21,545 nucleotides of DNA from IMG/VR virus record IMGVR_UViG_3300036466_000301, positions 1-21,545 of that record. One strand, written 5' to 3'. This document shows, in pieces, positions 1,345-21,144 of this stretch. A program made the translations under genes and the position numbers. Position 1 is the stretch's first letter. Every line of letters begins with the position of its first letter. The notes under the pieces were generated by a model. The model was not told where the DNA came from. It worked only from the letters and a program-made list of their open reading frames with translations, and searched no databases. The DNA comes from a virus.

Positions 1345-3822
1345 TCATGGATGACGTCGCTGAAACCCAACCACGTTATTAACAGCAAAATTAGCCTTAA
1401 CGGTAATACCTGTGAACCCCTGTTTATCACCTGGTTTATACCCTATCGCTAATGACGAATTACGTAAGCAACGATTGAAGTTACCCTTCATCATAGGGGT
1501 CTTAACCCCCTCGGTGTTGCACCATAGTCGGTAAGCACTATATAGGTCATCCAACATGGTAAAATCGTCACCACCGAGCACACAGGACGACTCAACGAAC
1601 TGTGACAACGGGAACATCTCACGCTTGATCTCGTTCTTCTCAACCAAACCAGCATTGGCCTCGGTGAACTGACCGTTGTTACTTCTCAGGCGGCGTAGTC
1701 CTTCAATCGCCCACTGACAGATACCGGCAGTCTCGGTTTTAAGTTTCTCCCCGAGGTGTGGGTCTTCACCGTTGCCATAGAATGACTTAGTGAATGGGAA
1801 CACCATCATACGCCTCACCAGTGCACCAGAGGCATCGTGGAAGGCTGGCATACCGTTAGCACTGAGCAAGACCTTGGTTTTCATCACCTCGTTACGTGAA
1901 CCTTTATACAGCTCGTGGAATGACACAGGGTCGCCGCCGACCACGGCCAGCATGGTACTAAGTACGTCATCACGGCTCGATGGATGAATATCACGCGCAT
2001 CGGGGATCATGGTTAGTGATTTACGTGCCATCTCGTTCAAGCTGGTATCCTTGTGTATCTTCCCCAGTGCCGGTGCTGCGACGTTATCGTGACCAACGAC
2101 GTTGCTTAACACAGTAGTTGTCGTACCCTTACCGCCACCAGACTTACCAGTGAACAGGGCGAAGCGTTGCAATGATACGTCCGTCGTCAGACAGTACCCC
2201 ATCCACTCTTGCAACTGGTCTTTCAGTAGTTGATCGTCACCCCATATCGAGTCGAGGAAACTGAACCACTGTGGACAACGTGCGCCCGGTTCGAAGTCAT
2301 AATCGAGTTCATTCAGTGCGAAGAACGCTGGTGTGTGTGGTAACAGCTTTGGTGTCTCGGCGTTAAGGTCCACAATGCCGTTCTGGAAGATGGCCAGGTT
2401 ACTCGTATCACTATTCTCACCGGTCAACCAGGTGCCATTCTCGACCTCATCGACGTTAACGTGGTCACAGACTACCTTGAAGATACCTGCAGTAAGCGCA
2501 TCTGCTGGTTTAAACACCGCAAACGACCGTTGTATCTGTGCCTTAATCACTTCATCATCAACGGTTTTCCATGACTTACCAGTGAAGGTGTAGAACTGCT
2601 TCTTATTGCGGATCAGGTTAACCCCATCATAATTGGCACCGACGAACACCACAGCAAAATCGTAATGGCTCGACTTAGGTGTAAGCTGGGCCACACGAAT
2701 ACTCGCGTCAGCGCGTGAGATACGGTAATCACCACGCAGTGCGTCAAGGTCGGTATTATCGGTGGTGACGGTCGGCCTACCTGTGACAATTACCTCACTG
2801 GCAGTCGGCGTAACCGGCTTGTTGAATAACTCTGCTTGACCTTCCCAACCGCACGACGGTTCTTGGCGGGGTATTGCCTGGAATCCCGCTTTGGCTGTTT
2901 TACAACCAGGTGCTGATTTAGGGTAGTGATAGGCACGATAGACAACACCGACAAAGTGGTTTTTCTCATGTGCTTCCCATGGTGGGAGGCAACGAGGGTT
3001 GTAGTGTTCCCATAAGAGTTCAGTAGCAAGCTTGAGAGGGATACCGTGGTCGTGTCCATAACAGGCAACACGGTAAAGCTCGTGAGTACCACTACCTAGT
3101 ACAGCAGGATGTGCCGCATTAGTAATGAACGAGATAAAGTTGTTGCGTTCAAAATCATTGTCCTCGTAACCGATACCTTCATCAATACCTTTACGAGCAT
3201 CGATCCAACGGTGCAACTCGGCATCTTTATCAGCAGGTAACAGGTGGCCAACACGGATGTCCTCGACCGAGTATCTTGGTTTCGATTTACTCAGGTCACT
3301 CACCACACTGTACGACACCGGTGTTGCCGGGTTCTTCAGGTGTAAGCTACCTGGCAAACGTGCCACACGACACGGGTCAATGACCTGACTATCGGAACCA
3401 TAGAACATCGATAGCTGTTTCTGGATCACAGTCCAATCGTTGTGGTCGATATCACCGGCATCGATTAACCAATAGGCATGACCATGAGTATCGTCACGCT
3501 TAGTGATGAAATGAGGTTCAACAGCCCACTGAGGCTCGGTCATCCCATCGAAATCAACGAAGAACACACGGAAATCGTTGATATTGTAGATTTCACGCCC
3601 TTGCAGGTCAGTACCGTTAATGCAGACATAAATACCACATTGCTGTGATTGCGCCCACTCAATGTATTCGAGTGAGTCCTGTAATGTGCTGTGCCAGACC
3701 TTGGCTAAATCTGGCCGCTGGGTTCCGTCCTTCGGGTCATAAAACGCTTGAAAGGTGACAACAGAGGTGTCGGAACCCGTCAACGCCGAGATGTACTGCA
3801 GCGCTTGATTGAGGTCGTGCAT
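1345..3822 (-). CDS. PrimPol-SF3 (D5/P4-like) DNA primase-helicase
   Basis: An 825-residue replication protein. The N-terminal archaeo-eukaryotic primase (PrimPol) domain shows FVDFDG at 88-93 for the metal-binding DxD, HGHAYW at 113-118 for the s-x-H motif, and DPCRVARLPGSLHLKN at 149-164, a typical signature. A linker and D5_N-type region lead to an SF3 helicase with Walker A GKSGGGKGT (559-567), Walker B MIPDARD (605-611), sensor VLLSANG (651-657) and arginine finger RRMMVF (670-675). It should synthesise primers and unwind the phage origin or fork. GAGG lies 6 nt before the ATG. It is the last gene of the leftward replication operon. No helicase or primase motif is missing. Confidence 0.93.
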   Translation of the reverse strand: MHDLNQALQYISALTGSDTSVVTFQAFYDPKDGTQRPDLAKVWHSTLQDSLEYIEWAQSQQCGIYVCINGTDLQGREIYNINDFRVFFVDFDGMTEPQWAVEPHFITKRDDTHGHAYWLIDAGDIDHNDWTVIQKQLSMFYGSDSQVIDPCRVARLPGSLHLKNPATPVSYSVVSDLSKSKPRYSVEDIRVGHLLPADKDAELHRWIDARKGIDEGIGYEDNDFERNNFISFITNAAHPAVLGSGTHELYRVACYGHDHGIPLKLATELLWEHYNPRCLPPWEAHEKNHFVGVVYRAYHYPKSAPGCKTAKAGFQAIPRQEPSCGWEGQAELFNKPVTPTASEVIVTGRPTVTTDNTDLDALRGDYRISRADASIRVAQLTPKSSHYDFAVVFVGANYDGVNLIRNKKQFYTFTGKSWKTVDDEVIKAQIQRSFAVFKPADALTAGIFKVVCDHVNVDEVENGTWLTGENSDTSNLAIFQNGIVDLNAETPKLLPHTPAFFALNELDYDFEPGARCPQWFSFLDSIWGDDQLLKDQLQEWMGYCLTTDVSLQRFALFTGKSGGGKGTTTTVLSNVVGHDNVAAPALGKIHKDTSLNEMARKSLTMIPDARDIHPSSRDDVLSTMLAVVGGDPVSFHELYKGSRNEVMKTKVLLSANGMPAFHDASGALVRRMMVFPFTKSFYGNGEDPHLGEKLKTETAGICQWAIEGLRRLRSNNGQFTEANAGLVEKNEIKREMFPLSQFVESSCVLGGDDFTMLDDLYSAYRLWCNTEGVKTPMMKGNFNRCLRNSSLAIGYKPGDKQGFTGITVKANFAVNNVVGFQRRHP

Positions 3823-3836
3823 CGTACACCTCGTTA

Positions 3837-4079
3837 TTATTCTTCAGCGAGTTTTCCGAGGATGTGTTCGGCTTTGAGCAGTGTTGCCGTTGATACCGCA
3901 TAATTAGGCTTACTGGTGTAAGTGGCAATACTGGCGTAACCTAAACCACTTGCGGCACTGACTTTATCGATGCCATGTTTCTCAACCAATACCTTTAAAC
4001 GACGGCAACGTTCTTCAGGAGTAATGACACGCTCGGCATCATATCTCTCGGATTGTTTTTTTAATAGCTCAATGTTCAT
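3837..4079 (-). CDS. Small putative helix-turn-helix protein
   Basis: An 80-residue charged protein. After a Lys/Arg/Glu-rich start, the segment GIDKVSAASGLGYASIATYT (residues 36-55) reads like a helix-turn-helix: a Cro-like 'VSxASGLGYxSI' pair followed by a short C-terminal helix. It could be a small regulator or a DNA-binding accessory of the primase-helicase just downstream. Its ATG overlaps the MazG stop as TAATG, so translation is probably coupled; no strong independent ribosome site is seen. The HTH call is from pattern only and could be wrong. Confidence 0.65.
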   Translation of the reverse strand: MNIELLKKQSERYDAERVITPEERCRRLKVLVEKHGIDKVSAASGLGYASIATYTSKPNYAVSTATLLKAEHILGKLAEE

Positions 4080-4618
4080 TAGTACTTCTTCCCATTCTCA
4101 GCAGCACGAGCCGCACGTTGATGATCAACACGGTTTTTATTGTATGCCACTTTTTCGTTGATGATGGTTTCGAGGGGGATGCTGAACAGATCACAGTACC
4201 GGAAAGCAGCCGAGACAGCGTCTGACAATTCAAAAGCATAACTGTTGTCATTCTCATCTTCCCGTTCTTGTACTTGAATGTATGCTGATGAAACCAGGGC
4301 ATGAAGCAGGGCAATTAAACCAACGTCGTCTTTACCTGTTACTTCTGCATTACTCCACATTTCACTATCATAGCCAGTAAACCCGACACTACCGAGATAA
4401 TCAAGACAACGAATAACGAAATCAGCTATTTCAACCTGGAACATCGGATATTGTGGAAGATGGTCGTCCATCAGGTTTTTACGGTCACCTTCCATGGCTT
4501 CAGACAACTCTGAATGGAATAAACAAACCATGGTTGCGAAACTACGTGGCTTATCCCACCACCCCATTTCACGGTTTTGCTGGTGAATACGGTTCTGTAA
4601 CGCTACTAAATCAATCAC
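4079..4618 (-). CDS. MazG-like nucleotide pyrophosphohydrolase
   Basis: A 179-residue all-alpha NTP pyrophosphatase. The metal-binding ExxE is in HSELSEAMEGD (Glu37, Glu40) and the paired ExxD in VEIADFVIRCLDYLG (Glu63, Asp66). The C-terminus, with AYNKNRVDHQ and a Lys-rich end, matches phage MazG proteins as I remember them. The enzyme hydrolyses (d)NTPs to (d)NMP and pyrophosphate; in phages it may adjust nucleotide pools or alarmones. The start is GTG at 4618, overlapping the upstream stop as GTGA, with GAGAGG 8 nt before. A residue 95-135 insert separates the catalytic helices from the C-terminal part. Confidence 0.88.
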   Translation of the reverse strand: MIDLVALQNRIHQQNREMGWWDKPRSFATMVCLFHSELSEAMEGDRKNLMDDHLPQYPMFQVEIADFVIRCLDYLGSVGFTGYDSEMWSNAEVTGKDDVGLIALLHALVSSAYIQVQEREDENDNSYAFELSDAVSAAFRYCDLFSIPLETIINEKVAYNKNRVDHQRAARAAENGKKY

Positions 4619-5470: not shown

Positions 5471-6511
5471 TTATTGTGGGTTAGTGTAGTTTGGTTTCGC
5501 ATAACCAGCGGTGATGATTTGCTCATCAGTCCAATCCTGACCTTTCAACGCTTCATAGGTGTAAGGTGAATCAGCGTTCATGATAACGTTACCCGTTGTC
5601 GGTATAGCCGGGGCAGCAGGAGCAGCAGGAGCAGCAGGAGCAGCAGGAGGTGTCTGTGGGGCTACGGGTTCTTCAACCCATTTACCTTTGCCTTGTGCTA
5701 CTAACACATCTTCAGTCCACGCAGGGTCAGCCTGATACTGTTCCTTAGTGAATTGAGTATCAGTATGCACGTACTTTTTAACAACCTGTACTGGTGCCTG
5801 TGGCGCTGGCGGGGTCTGTGGCGCTGGCGGGGTCTGTGGCGCTGGCGGGGTCTGATGTTGGTTAAATTGCAGACCTGTACCGGCTTGGACATTGGTATTA
5901 GCGTGACCACGACCAGCGAATGCCTGTGTTGCCGACTGTGTAGGGCCACGACCGAATGATTCATCGTCATAAACCATCTGCACGTTTAACACTGTCAACG
6001 CAATAATACGAGATTGGTCTGATTTAGTGTAAGCAGACACCTCGACCTGTGCGTCACACCAACAACCACCGTAAATCGCGTCAGGTTGAATGTCACGAGT
6101 ACCAGTGGGGTCAACGCAACCAACAGGGTTAACGTTCTTCATTGACACGATTTCATAACCTGCAGTAATAGGGTCGCTGGTTCCAGGTAGAGGGTTACCA
6201 TTGGCGTCTTTCTGCATAATGGAATTACCATCAACAAACTCAGGTGGGTATTGAACACCAGTGTATTGCTTAACTGTAGCAGGGGTAACATCGGGTAAAT
6301 CGACGTTCCATTCCTCCTTAACCACTTCCCTAATTGCTTGTTTAAGTACGTCCGGTGTCGATGGGAATTGCAACCCTGCCTTAGCGATCACACCTTGTCC
6401 TGTTGTTGGGAACATGGCCTTAATCTGATACTTACCTGACTTCTCGTAAGGTGTTTTCAGGTTGGGTAGAGATGCACGGAATAAACCGGTAAAGATAGTA
6501 CGATTAGCCAT
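5471..6511 (-). CDS. DUF2815-family single-stranded DNA-binding protein
   Basis: A 346-residue protein. Residues 1-190 look like the phage ssDNA-binding core (DUF2815): a TGLFRASLPNL start, FPTTGQG, then YGGCWCDAQVEVSAY, and IALTVLNVQMVYDDESFG. The tail, residues 195-346, is unusual. A PQTPPA repeat linker (220-242) leads to a mini-domain at 253-279 (FTKEQYQ, AWTEDVLVAQG), then a Pro/Ala linker (282-304), then a related mini-domain at 317-340 (YTYEALKGQDWTDEQIITAG). It would coat ssDNA at the fork and recruit partners through the tail. AGGAG lies 7 nt before the ATG. It directly follows the DUF2800 nuclease, a pairing common in phages. Confidence 0.85.
   Translation of the reverse strand: MANRTIFTGLFRASLPNLKTPYEKSGKYQIKAMFPTTGQGVIAKAGLQFPSTPDVLKQAIREVVKEEWNVDLPDVTPATVKQYTGVQYPPEFVDGNSIMQKDANGNPLPGTSDPITAGYEIVSMKNVNPVGCVDPTGTRDIQPDAIYGGCWCDAQVEVSAYTKSDQSRIIALTVLNVQMVYDDESFGRGPTQSATQAFAGRGHANTNVQAGTGLQFNQHQTPPAPQTPPAPQTPPAPQAPVQVVKKYVHTDTQFTKEQYQADPAWTEDVLVAQGKGKWVEEPVAPQTPPAAPAAPAAPAAPAIPTTGNVIMNADSPYTYEALKGQDWTDEQIITAGYAKPNYTNPQ
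5801..5854. repeat. 18-bp tandem repeat, three copies, in the SSB linker
   Basis: The 18-bp unit TGGCGCTGGCGGGGTCTG occurs three times head to tail at 5801, 5819 and 5837 and encodes three PQTPPA hexapeptides on the minus strand. A second run of 9-bp GCAGCAGGA-type units at about 5610-5645 encodes the second Pro/Ala linker. Both preserve frame, so copy number can change tail length without breaking the gene. Confidence 0.9.
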
Positions 6512-15231: not shown

Positions 15232-15795
<564 letters not shown>

Positions 15796-15829
15796 AATAA
15801 AAAACACCCTCTGTTTAACGATTAATGAC

Positions 15830-15858
15830 AGTATAGTCATCATCACAGAGGGTGTAAA
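15830..15858 (-). promoter_or_regulatory. Leftward promoter before Ala-rich gene
   Basis: On the minus strand TTTACA (15858-15853), a 17-bp spacer and TATACT (15835-15830). Upstream, 15853-15880 is identical over 28 bp to 1316-1343 at the other promoter. Arms 15804-15813 and 15846-15855 (ACACCCTCTG and complement) form an inverted repeat around the -10. The transcript would start near 15823, about 28 nt before the ATG at 15795. Confidence 0.75.
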
Positions 15859-18243: not shown

Positions 18244-18377
18244 CTTTTAGAACACCTCCTTTAAAAAGTAGTATAAAGTAAAAATAATATAAGAAAAAAC
18301 AATATAATACAGATACAAGGATTGCGGCATTATCTGACTGTAAAACCTTTTGATAGAAAGACGTTCTAAAAGAGTAT
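18239..18377. repeat. 15-bp inverted repeat flanking promoters
   Basis: ATACTCTTTTAGAAC (18239-18253) and GTTCTAAAAGAGTAT (18363-18377) are perfect complements separated by 109 bp. One arm overlaps the -10 at 18238; the other ends 4 bp before the TTGACA at 18381. The wide spacing argues against a hairpin and for paired binding sites or a looping operator. The core AAAGAGTAT also occurs at the divergent promoters at 8708. Confidence 0.75.
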
Positions 18378-18609: not shown

Positions 18610-19011
18610 ATGAAACGTCTTTGCAGCGCTGCAGGTTGTAAAGAAATCGTCGAGGACGGTAGCTCCCGCTGTCCTCGGCACCCCCTCACTCCACCGACCA
18701 TACCTAAGCGTCGGTACTCCCACCAGTACATTAACGGTAAACGCATCTATAACACCCAGAGATGGGTTAACCTGCGTAACCGCTATGCAACCCACCAGCC
18801 ACTATGTGAACACTGCCTGAGAGCCGGTTTAAGCGTTCCAGGTGAAGAAGTAGACCATGTTCATGAACTAGAGGACGGTGGTGATCCTTGGGATTGGGAT
18901 AATCTTTCTCATCTGTGCCACTCCTGTCATAACAGAAAAAGCGCACGTGAACGGTCTAAGCGTCGTCGTAAGAAAGGTCAGAACGGATTCGGGTCGATAT
19001 CGGATTTTTGA
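18610..19011 (+). CDS. HNH endonuclease, packaging-associated type
   Basis: A 133-residue HNH nuclease. An N-terminal zinc finger is suggested by Cys5, Cys10, Cys21 and His24. The nuclease core is CEHCLRAG (Cys66, 69), EVDHVHELEDGG (Asp82, His83), DNLSHLCHSCHNRK (Asn98, Cys103, Cys106, His107), so the H-N-H triad and structural zinc are complete. The end is strongly basic (RSKRRRKKGQN). In many phages such a protein is encoded next to the terminase genes and supports DNA packaging; terminase is expected further right but is not in this window. No ribosome site is obvious; coupling from the gene 1 nt upstream is likely. Confidence 0.88.
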   Translation: MKRLCSAAGCKEIVEDGSSRCPRHPLTPPTIPKRRYSHQYINGKRIYNTQRWVNLRNRYATHQPLCEHCLRAGLSVPGEEVDHVHELEDGGDPWDWDNLSHLCHSCHNRKSARERSKRRRKKGQNGFGSISDF

Positions 19012-19023
19012 GTAACGCACTTC

Positions 19024-19052
19024 TTGTAACACCCTTTACTTAGCGTTACAAT
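19024..19052 (+). promoter_or_regulatory. Promoter of the homing endonuclease gene
   Basis: TTGTAA (19024-19029), a 17-bp spacer and TACAAT (19047-19052), 27 nt before ATG 19079. A 7-bp inverted repeat (GTAACGC 19012-19018, GCGTTAC 19043-19049) brackets the spacer and overlaps the -10, so it could be an operator or a weak hairpin ending the HNH transcript. An own promoter is usual for homing endonuclease genes. Confidence 0.55.
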
Positions 19053-19078
19053 GGGTAAAAAGCTCAGAGGGAACATTC

Positions 19079-19609
19079 ATGAATACCGCTCCAGTTTTTG
19101 ATTTTTCGTCAGTAGCAACTAATGATAAATATTTACCTTATTTCGCCAGACATTATCTCTACTGTAAGTCGAGTGGTGTTATAACTAATTTAAACGGTAA
19201 GGTGATTAAACCGGCATCCGATAAAGGGTATGTGATTCTATCCAAGAAGGTCAAAGGTAGAAACATCCGAATCAGAGGTCACAGATTGATTATGTTCATG
19301 TGTGGTCATGACATCGCCGGACATGAAGTTGACCATATCGACGGTGACCGAACCAATAACAAGTACGACAACCTTAGATTGGTTTCAAGAAGTGTTAACA
19401 GAAGGAATGCAGCAAGGTCAAGGAAAAACACGTCAGGTGTCAGTGGTGTATGCTGGCATAAATGGCAAAAAAAGTGGGAAGTCAAAGGGTTAAAATGCAC
19501 CATCGGTTATCATGATAATTTCTTTGACGCCTGTTGCACCAGAAAATCATGGGAGAACTCGCAAGAGTATTATACTGATAGACACGGTGTTGTAGATGCG
19601 AAGTATTAG
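19079..19609 (+). CDS. HNH homing endonuclease with AP2 DNA-binding domain
   Basis: A 176-residue free-standing mobile endonuclease. The N-terminal part has NTS-type repeats around GVITNLNGKVIKP and YVILSKKVKGR. The HNH core is RGHRLIMF (67-74), VDHIDGDRTNN (84-94) and YDNLRLVSRSVNRRN (96-110). The AP2 segment follows, NTSGVSGVCWHKWQKKWEVK (117-136). All core residues are present, so it is probably active. It would cut alleles lacking it and spread by repair. GAGGG lies 7 nt before the ATG. It appears inserted between the packaging HNH gene and a repeat array, with its own promoter. Confidence 0.9.
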   Translation: MNTAPVFDFSSVATNDKYLPYFARHYLYCKSSGVITNLNGKVIKPASDKGYVILSKKVKGRNIRIRGHRLIMFMCGHDIAGHEVDHIDGDRTNNKYDNLRLVSRSVNRRNAARSRKNTSGVSGVCWHKWQKKWEVKGLKCTIGYHDNFFDACCTRKSWENSQEYYTDRHGVVDAKY

Positions 19610-19610
19610 A

Positions 19611-19750
19611 AAATATCCAAACGATCCAAGTGCCAAAAATCAAAATTACACTCCTAATGGCACTTTTTCAAAAATATCCAAACGATCCAAGTGCCAAAAA
19701 TCAAAATTACACTCCTAATGGCACTTTTTCAAAAACATCCAAACGATCCA
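19611..19750. repeat. 61-bp direct tandem repeat, two copies plus a fragment
   Basis: Copies at 19611-19671 and 19672-19732 are identical; a third, broken copy (about 18 bp, one mismatch) begins at 19733. Each full unit contains AAGTGCC and GGCACTT (for copy one, 19628-19634 and 19659-19665) followed by TTT, a weak terminator-like hairpin with a 24-nt loop. The unit begins right after the endonuclease stop. Since 61 is not a multiple of three, frame shifts each copy, so it is unlikely to be coding. Confidence 0.9.
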
Positions 19751-19876
19751 GGTATGGGTATTTCGGATTTTGTTCAGCGACGATCCAGGTGTGGGTTTTT
19801 CGGATTTTGTTCAGCGACGATCCAGGTGTGGGTTTTTCAAAAATCAAAAAGCCGATCCAGGTGTGGGTATTTCGGA
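19744..19876. repeat. 37-bp repeat, about four copies, last two degenerate
   Basis: Units begin CGATCCAGGT at 19744, 19781, 19818 and about 19853. The first two are full 37-bp copies differing at two bases, sharing CGGATTTTGTTCAGCGA at their ends. The third swaps its end for TCAAAAATCAAAAAG, which echoes the 61-bp unit; the fourth runs into the 9-bp array. Each carries GATC and CCAGG together. The mosaic suggests template switching or unequal recombination between repeats. Confidence 0.8.
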
Positions 19877-20047
19877 TCCTGGCTACCCTGGTTGCCCTGG
19901 TTGCCCTGGTTGCCCTGGTTGCCCTGGTTACCCTGGTTACCCTGGTTGCCCTGGTTGCCCTGGTTGCCCTGGTTACCCTGGTTACCCTGGTTACCCTGGT
20001 TACCCTGGTTGCCCTGGTTGCCCTGGTTGCCCTGGTTACCCTGGTCA
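19877..20047. repeat. 9-bp minisatellite, about 19 units
   Basis: Unit CCCTGGTTG or CCCTGGTTA is repeated without a break from 19886 to 20047 (18 units), with a degenerate first unit at 19877. The last base alternates in blocks (4 G, 2 A, 3 G, 4 A, 3 G, 1 A). Every unit contains CCTGG. All three forward frames are open only because the unit is nine bases with no stop; a Gly-Pro-Tyr/Cys frame looks collagen-like but has no ATG. Confidence 0.92.
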
Positions 20048-20234
20048 ATTATCGGCTGTTTCTAAGTCATTGTAAAATCAGGTAAAATCGTAATATTTGT
20101 GTGTTCTTATCCTTTTAATTCGTATTTTTTTAGATTTCGTATTGACTCTTTTCTCAAAATAAGTGATTGTTACCACATCGAAACGGAATGTTTTCGAAAA
20201 CAAATTTTTTAAAATGTTTTTAATAGGTGACAAC
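20048..20234. other. AT-rich gap, promoter uncertain
   Basis: 187 bases between the repeat array and the next gene. A perfect 14-bp palindrome TGTTTTCGAAAACA lies at 20189-20202, about 33 bp before ATG 20235, a plausible operator. TTGACT at 20142 has no good -10 at normal spacing. A reading frame extends upstream to 20163, but the ribosome site AGGTGA at 20225-20230 places the start at 20235. Confidence 0.5.
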
Positions 20235-20696
20235 ATGAACGCTCAAGACTTCCTGGCCAAAAACGCAACTATCAACTGTTCAATGCTCGCTGATATGCTG
20301 GGCGTATCTTCTGGAACCATTACAAAGATGAAAACAGAAGTTACTCGTATTCAATCATTAGCTCTGGACGCTCTCAACGCTGAGCAAAAAGCAGCAAACC
20401 TGATTGATGTGGATATCACTGAATGGTTCGACAAAGTTAACGGTAACACCTACTTTAGCGCCTGGGTTAACTTCAAGGGTGAAAACTATTTTCTACCGTT
20501 TCAATATGGTTACGGCTCCCACTGCGAAGACATGGCTTTGAAACTGTTAAGTGATAAAGGTCTTATCCCTGATGAATGGAGACGCTACACACTGCGCGAA
20601 AAATACAATATCAACATTAACACCAGTAGCCGCGAAGGGTTAAAGCGCGACATGTACGACGGTTCAGAACGTCAACTTAACCAATCACAATTTTAA
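20235..20696 (+). CDS. HTH-like phage protein with C-terminal unknown domain
   Basis: A 153-residue protein. Residues 15-38 (CSMLADMLGVSSGTITKMKT) look like a helix-turn-helix that would bind DNA. The C-terminal part, ITEWFDKVNGNTYFSAWVNF, FLPFQYGYGSHCEDMALKLL and SDKGLIPDEW, is a domain I recall from other phage proteins ('NTYFSxxVxxxGxxxxxPFQYGYGxHxxxxA') with no known function. ATG 20235 has AGGTGA 4 nt upstream; the longer frame beginning at 20163 has none. The palindrome just upstream could be its own operator. Regulator or nuclease-adjacent role is unproven. Confidence 0.75.
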   Translation: MNAQDFLAKNATINCSMLADMLGVSSGTITKMKTEVTRIQSLALDALNAEQKAANLIDVDITEWFDKVNGNTYFSAWVNFKGENYFLPFQYGYGSHCEDMALKLLSDKGLIPDEWRRYTLREKYNININTSSREGLKRDMYDGSERQLNQSQF

Positions 20697-20709
20697 GGGG
20701 TACATCACC

Positions 20710-21144
20710 ATGAAACACCCGTTTGTAATACCTGAAAGTTGTATCTTATCAGGTGGCAGTGTCTGGTCAGACTTAACGAATGATCCCGGTTATATTTATT
20801 TTCTGATAAAAGACGATCGTGTTATGTATGTTGGACAGACTGTATGTTTTGACAGTAGGTTCAAAGACCACCTCACCTCTGAAAAGGTTTTTGATAGGTA
20901 TGCTTTTATCACTACTGAAAGAGCCGAACTCGATGAGGTAGAAGCGTTGTATATACACACTCTACAACCTTCACTCAACCGTAAAATGCCTAGCAATAAA
21001 ACGGTTAACATCTCGAAACGTAAGCTGCTTGAGCTAATTGCTGAAGCACTACCTAAGCCTGAATGTACCCTCAAAGATGGACAACTGAGTTACTACTCGT
21101 TAGACCAGGCTGAAGTGATACTCAATAAACTAAGTGAACTATAA
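20710..21144 (+). CDS. GIY-YIG endonuclease
   Basis: A 144-residue GIY-YIG nuclease. The first strands are DPGYIYFLIKDDRVMYVGQT (25-44), containing the GIY-type and YVG elements; catalytic Arg50 and His54 are in DSRFKDHL, and the metal-binding Glu is in ELDEVEALYIHTLQPSLNRK (probably Glu78). The C-terminal 45 residues are helical and may recognise DNA or a partner. It could be a mobile intron-type nuclease or a phage repair or host-attack nuclease. AAGGGG lies 9 nt before ATG 20710. It is the second nuclease of likely mobile origin within 2 kb. Confidence 0.88.
   Translation: MKHPFVIPESCILSGGSVWSDLTNDPGYIYFLIKDDRVMYVGQTVCFDSRFKDHLTSEKVFDRYAFITTERAELDEVEALYIHTLQPSLNRKMPSNKTVNISKRKLLELIAEALPKPECTLKDGQLSYYSLDQAEVILNKLSEL

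Follow-up and report, generated by a model that had tools for sequence, protein, structure and literature searches.

In the 21,545-nucleotide virus record analysed here (the window, 21.5 kb), an array of short repeats fills a spacer downstream of two HNH endonuclease genes, and the reading that we favour, with somewhat better than even confidence, is that of a terminator or insulator array which borders a swappable early-gene cassette, grown by local duplication and carrying a 9-bp array as a younger satellite. According to this reading, the first 268 bp (19610–19877) would be a row of degenerate sense-strand transcription terminators, which would stop the transcripts of the upstream endonuclease gene (HNH-A), and of the homing gene inserted after it (HNH-B), so that they do not reach the promoter of the exchangeable early-gene cassette that follows. 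Its units would have come from repeated local tandem duplication of the HNH-A 3'-end sequence together with its downstream stop signal, presumably by slippage or recombination, and the 9-bp array may have arisen later in the same spacer via slippage or unequal recombination.

The original prediction described a 437-bp mosaic of three repeat families, and TRF and a repeat search confirmed it where it had been placed. All three arrays were read on the plus strand: a 61-bp unit repeated 2.3 times at 19610–19750 (98% match, score 275), a 37-bp unit repeated 3.7 times at 19743–19877 (score 172), and a 9-bp CCTGGTTRC unit repeated 18.7 times at 19878–20045 (score 273), while the top score among 100 order-3 Markov surrogates of the window was 64. 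The three arrays stand as described, but the 61-bp and 37-bp families are not separate types, since both are built from one directional motif, roughly ACGMTCCWARTGGGKT, of which the window has eight copies (19621, 19648, 19682, 19709, 19743, 19780, 19817 and 19852). Within each 61-bp unit are two copies able to form a stem together (ACGATCCAAGTGCC at 19621 and 19682, ACACTCCTAATGGCAC at 19648 and 19709), and each 37-bp unit holds one (the last four positions), together with TCGGATTTT, as found in the 3' end of HNH-A. The chimeric joints were likewise borne out, the third 37-bp unit ending in TTTTTCAAAAATC..., which resembles the 61-bp joint, and the fourth continuing into CCTGGCTAC CCTGGTTGC. 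The 9-bp array is a satellite separate from the motif family and probably private to its lineage; it spans 168 bp, with an exact copy number that is given by the metagenome assembly and is uncertain, and the order of its variants (xGGGGAAGGGAAAAGGGAx) suggests growth by duplication of multi-unit blocks. A translated tandem repeat was ruled out, as units of 61 and 37 bp are not the multiples of 3 expected of one and no conserved gene is annotated there in relatives. The array is non-coding in all relatives and hence not the conserved 3' part of a translated gene, and isolate phages carry the same kind of array, which speaks against an assembly artefact.

The phage is related to the roughly 44-kb Vibrio and Aeromonas siphophages (its primase is 54% identical over its length). 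Megablast of the whole window against phages gave no close relative. HNH-A (18610–19011, plus strand; phrog_144 8e-29, Pfam HNH 1.5e-9) is a terminase-linked HNH endonuclease gene with syntenic counterparts in Vibrio/Aeromonas siphophages (40–54% identity), and it is 3' of HNH-A that the array lies in relatives. The gap that follows its stop codon (19012–19078, plus strand) holds a predicted sigma70-like promoter (19024–19052, TTGTAA-17-TACAAT), and is followed by HNH-B, a homing-type HNH endonuclease gene (19079–19609, plus strand; phrog_99 1.5e-32, Pfam HNH_3 4e-11). Its stop codon ends at 19609 and the array begins with no gap, so the predicted start right after the endonuclease holds. Beyond the array, a shared element TCTAAGTCATTGTAAAATC (20061–20080, plus strand; TAAGTNATTGAWAA in relatives, read by eye from the sequence) precedes an AT-rich region (20081–20237, plus strand) presumed to contain the promoter of the downstream cassette. 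The first cassette gene (20238–20696, plus strand; phrog_6246) encodes a probable helix-turn-helix DNA-binding protein, weak matches to this fold being found for its homologue in Vibrio phage 393E50-1, to which positions 20119–20530 show 70% DNA identity; another gene in the cassette (20710–21144, plus strand) is GIY-YIG nuclease-like by a weak match (PF01541, 6e-4). In relatives, the operon extends onward to terS and terL. No close relatives of the 20238 gene or of HNH-B were found in IMG/VR. As a side observation, the 20061–20080 element is single in the window and is repeated on the opposite strand in two IMG/VR contigs, as tandem TTATAAATCAATGACTTAG copies with a period of ~27 bp in the same spacer (L118:3517–3598, L119:4137–4264), and it is a possible operator.

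The array recurs across the phage family in one location and one orientation. The same motif was found in the non-coding spacer 3' of HNH-A in 142E35-1, 159E43-1b, LMAVpS1, Artemius, D63/D164, 1.004.O and 393E50-1, and in the IMG/VR contigs L108, L111, L113, L115 and L117–L121, amounting to about 13 phage lineages; among 268 fetched loci (~2.1 Mb), motif clusters occur only downstream of HNH-A and never on the strand opposite to its sense strand. When 46 sites from relatives, with the window left out, were used to train a position weight matrix, it scored the four 37-bp units of the window at 15.5, 19.0, 19.0 and 11.9, while the best score elsewhere in the window was 11.6. HNH-A is also present without the array, namely in KLEA5, 2.044, 489E54-1 and 103E44.1. 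In exact-pattern scans of IMG/VR, the 61-bp core had no match, the 9-bp array pattern occurred in 5 contigs, and the 37-bp core gave 79 single matches, which were rejected as all unrelated and mostly in coding sequence. A previously described repeat array of such a kind was not found in the literature searched (subscription journals not covered). The array of the window is one version of a fast-changing non-coding stretch found in many Vibrio-type phages right behind a nuclease gene linked to packaging.

The original prediction also proposed a scar from repeated repair at the homing site, and called for comparison with relatives lacking the endonuclease. In many relatives the array is present and a homing gene is absent. 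One natural pair is L118 and L119, with 98.85% identity across the 3402 bp that lead to the HNH-A stop codon; past it, L119 has a homing HNH of ~600 bp that is absent from L118, and the motif array then follows in both. Since homing-free relatives and L118 carry the array, it is not a homing scar and was not made by HNH-B, and the simple homing-scar reading is removed. In HK97-like phages, the region upstream of terminase is a hot spot for HEG-like endonucleases (PMC10448857), and the present locus is similar in that several different HNH homing genes occupy the gap after HNH-A (in the window, L115, L117 and L119, with 33–74% identity to one another); it differs in that the repeat array exists without homing genes and is not part of one. 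In L112, a different, larger nuclease-like ORF (3418–4236) lies right after HNH-A, a further nuclease gene in this gap.

Among the roles listed in the original prediction, that of a terminator array is the one backed by comparative data. Hairpins folding at -8 kcal/mol or lower and leading directly into a U-tract were counted in 14 array segments and in 60 dinucleotide shuffles of them. The sense strand had 18 and the antisense strand 4, against 3.6±1.7 (maximum 7) in shuffles, which is a 5-fold excess relative to shuffles and a 4.5-fold one relative to the antisense strand; some of the 14 phages are related, and the segments are not fully independent. At least one such sense hairpin was present in 12 of the 14 phages (3.2 expected), and their density was 7.2 per kb in arrays and 1.3 per kb in random genome windows of relatives. 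In the window, AAGTGCCA and TGGCACTT form a terminator-like hairpin (19628–19669, plus strand; -8.6 kcal/mol), whose 8-bp stem encloses a loop of 22 nt and is followed by TTTTTC, and folding gives a second exact copy with its T-tract at 19689–19730 (plus strand). These stems and loops are those of weak hairpins, which counts against the terminator reading. A strict consensus terminator scan, which does not count hairpins with an 8-bp stem and 22-nt loop, found no plus-strand terminator in the window array; folding of the 37-bp units is no more stable than that of shuffles, no strong hairpin was found in L117 and 142E35, and Rfam gave no match above the gathering score for the array, only a chance-level hit. 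The array-less KLEA5, 2.044 and 103E44.1 have hairpins with T-tracts in the corresponding region, in segments chosen by eye. Taken as terminators, the hairpins would end transcription in vivo much as intrinsic (Rho-independent) or tandem terminators do, where the upstream gene's transcript carries a hairpin and then a U-tract, and a new promoter region comes next; unlike these, the array is made of many degenerate units that share a conserved 5' half, some of the stems pair one unit with its neighbour, and both copy number and sequence change fast.

The conserved 5' half of the motif is one ground of the strongest alternative, an operator- or enhancer-like array of binding sites in which a directional motif would be bound by a phage protein, for instance one of the helix-turn-helix proteins at the cassette start, and would control the cassette. 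Positions ACG.T are strongly conserved outside the hairpin (information content of 1.5–1.75 bits), and the conservation of this half (ACGMT) exceeds what a terminator needs; hairpins formed by single motifs were considered as the basis of this conservation, and protein binding was retained because the 5' half is conserved beyond pairing. Helix-turn-helix proteins are often among the cassette genes, and some phages have, close by, repeats of another conserved element, TAAGTNATTGA. However, every motif copy lies on one strand, the enrichment of hairpins with U-tracts is strand-specific, and the motif stays constant while the cassette genes vary between phages, so we regard a binding-site array as possible but improbable.

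With regard to the cassette border of the terminator reading, the predicted recombination hot spot was supported in part, in that borders of module presence and absence, and replacement of arrays, fall at the array. A module of about 1.1–1.3 kb differs between 393E50-1 and 489E54-1 and between 142E35-1 and 103E44.1; it starts at the end of HNH-A and consists of the array, an AT-rich spacer and small genes, and 103E44.1 lacks the array together with the whole module. As the module border lies at the HNH-A end between close relatives, the array forms the left edge of a cassette of early genes that can be exchanged. Moron and other exchangeable early-gene cassettes are similar in being modules that bring a regulatory spacer of their own and that one close relative has and another lacks; the module described here differs in its border, which is made up of a duplicated gene 3' end and private satellites.

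This duplicated end can be seen in the arrays of 142E35-1, LMAVpS1, Artemius, 1.004.O and 393E50-1, which contain a further copy of an 18–29 bp segment that includes the HNH-A stop codon (for 1.004.O and 393E50-1 the null is partly contaminated by the kept second copy, and both are still above its maximum). The recurrence of the stop segment means that the duplicated unit included the 3' end of the gene; in the window, the trace of this end in the array is 9 bp only, TCGGATTTT. The same observation, together with the start of the array at the HNH-A stop and the position of module borders and homing insertions, all at the HNH-A 3' end, could be read as the product of nuclease action, in which HNH-A (or the homing HNHs) would cut the HNH-A 3' end and break repair would multiply the local sequence, giving a hot spot that admits cassettes and homing genes. 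The HEG-like endonuclease hot spot upstream of an HK97-like terminase (PMC10448857) agrees with this, but the four phages with HNH-A and no array do not, nor does L118, where no homing gene is necessary, and we hold such nuclease action to be unlikely. Slightly less probable still is a self-renewing boundary element, in which HNH-A would act on the gene that encodes it, at the 3' end, and repair of the breaks would keep duplicating that end, to yield both a terminator array and a standing recombination port for early-gene cassettes and homing genes.

The simple arrays of 9–16 bp behave differently from the motif: they are unrelated between lineages and are swapped between near-identical phages. 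D164 matches D63 at 99% identity as far as the array, with a TCTATCCA-type satellite in D164 only, and L120 and L121 are 96% identical up to the start of unrelated satellites; several contigs (L119, L120) end inside such arrays, as assembly breaks would give. The 9-bp array, which differs between lineages, probably has no sequence-specific role. A functionless, neutral satellite tolerated in an intergenic spacer would explain this turnover, but as an account of the whole it is very unlikely, since divergent phages have the motif array with conserved sequence, on the same strand and at the same place, and it is enriched in hairpins.

Of the remaining roles, a replication origin or packaging (cos) element is the least probable of all, in spite of the non-coding, repeat-rich, AT-rich spacer adjoining a packaging-linked gene. 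The records of KLEA5 and 2.044 end in a common sequence, GACCCGYGCCTTC, taken as the cos end, which in 393E50-1 lies at 46496, between the array (about 44650–44900) and terS (46661), i.e., ~1.6 kb beyond the array; with this cos-like end just before terS, and relatives with homologous packaging genes that lack the array, the array was rejected as the cos site. It is not an essential replication origin either, because relatives with homologous replication genes lack it (103E44.1 is 87–89% identical to the array-bearing 142E35-1 in the primase and polymerase regions), and GC skew shows no turn at the array. HNH-A is by phrog and synteny of the same kind as the HNH packaging nuclease of HK97-type phages, which sits beside cos and terminase; unlike that arrangement, the array stands apart from the inferred cos.

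The locus is of interest because, at one constant position in a phage family, non-coding repeats emerge, give way to others and persist beside a cassette border, with several natural before/after pairs. The insulation and swapping of phage early genes, and the origin of satellites in compact genomes, are thereby testable in cultured Vibrio phages (D164/D63, Artemius, LMAVpS1).

Other repeats were seen along the way. A second tandem array, (CATCATT)n, with a 7-bp unit repeated 10–14 times, lies just before AGGGGGG upstream of terS, near the presumed cos, in 142E35-1, 159E43-1b and 103E44.1, among which its copy number differs (L088:6416–6515, L089:6589–6673, L087:43023–43105). In the window, an imperfect 9/21-bp repeat (15271–15506) within a minus-strand ORF (15232–15846) encodes a long Ala-rich run (AAAADAAYAARAA), and another minus-strand ORF (5471–6511) has in-frame repeats of 18 bp (three copies, 5798–5854) and 9 bp (four copies, 5613–5649) that give PPAPQT- and PAA-rich linkers. 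An AT-rich 15-bp tandem repeat (18262–18307) occupies part of the divergent promoter gap that separates 18041 from 18450.
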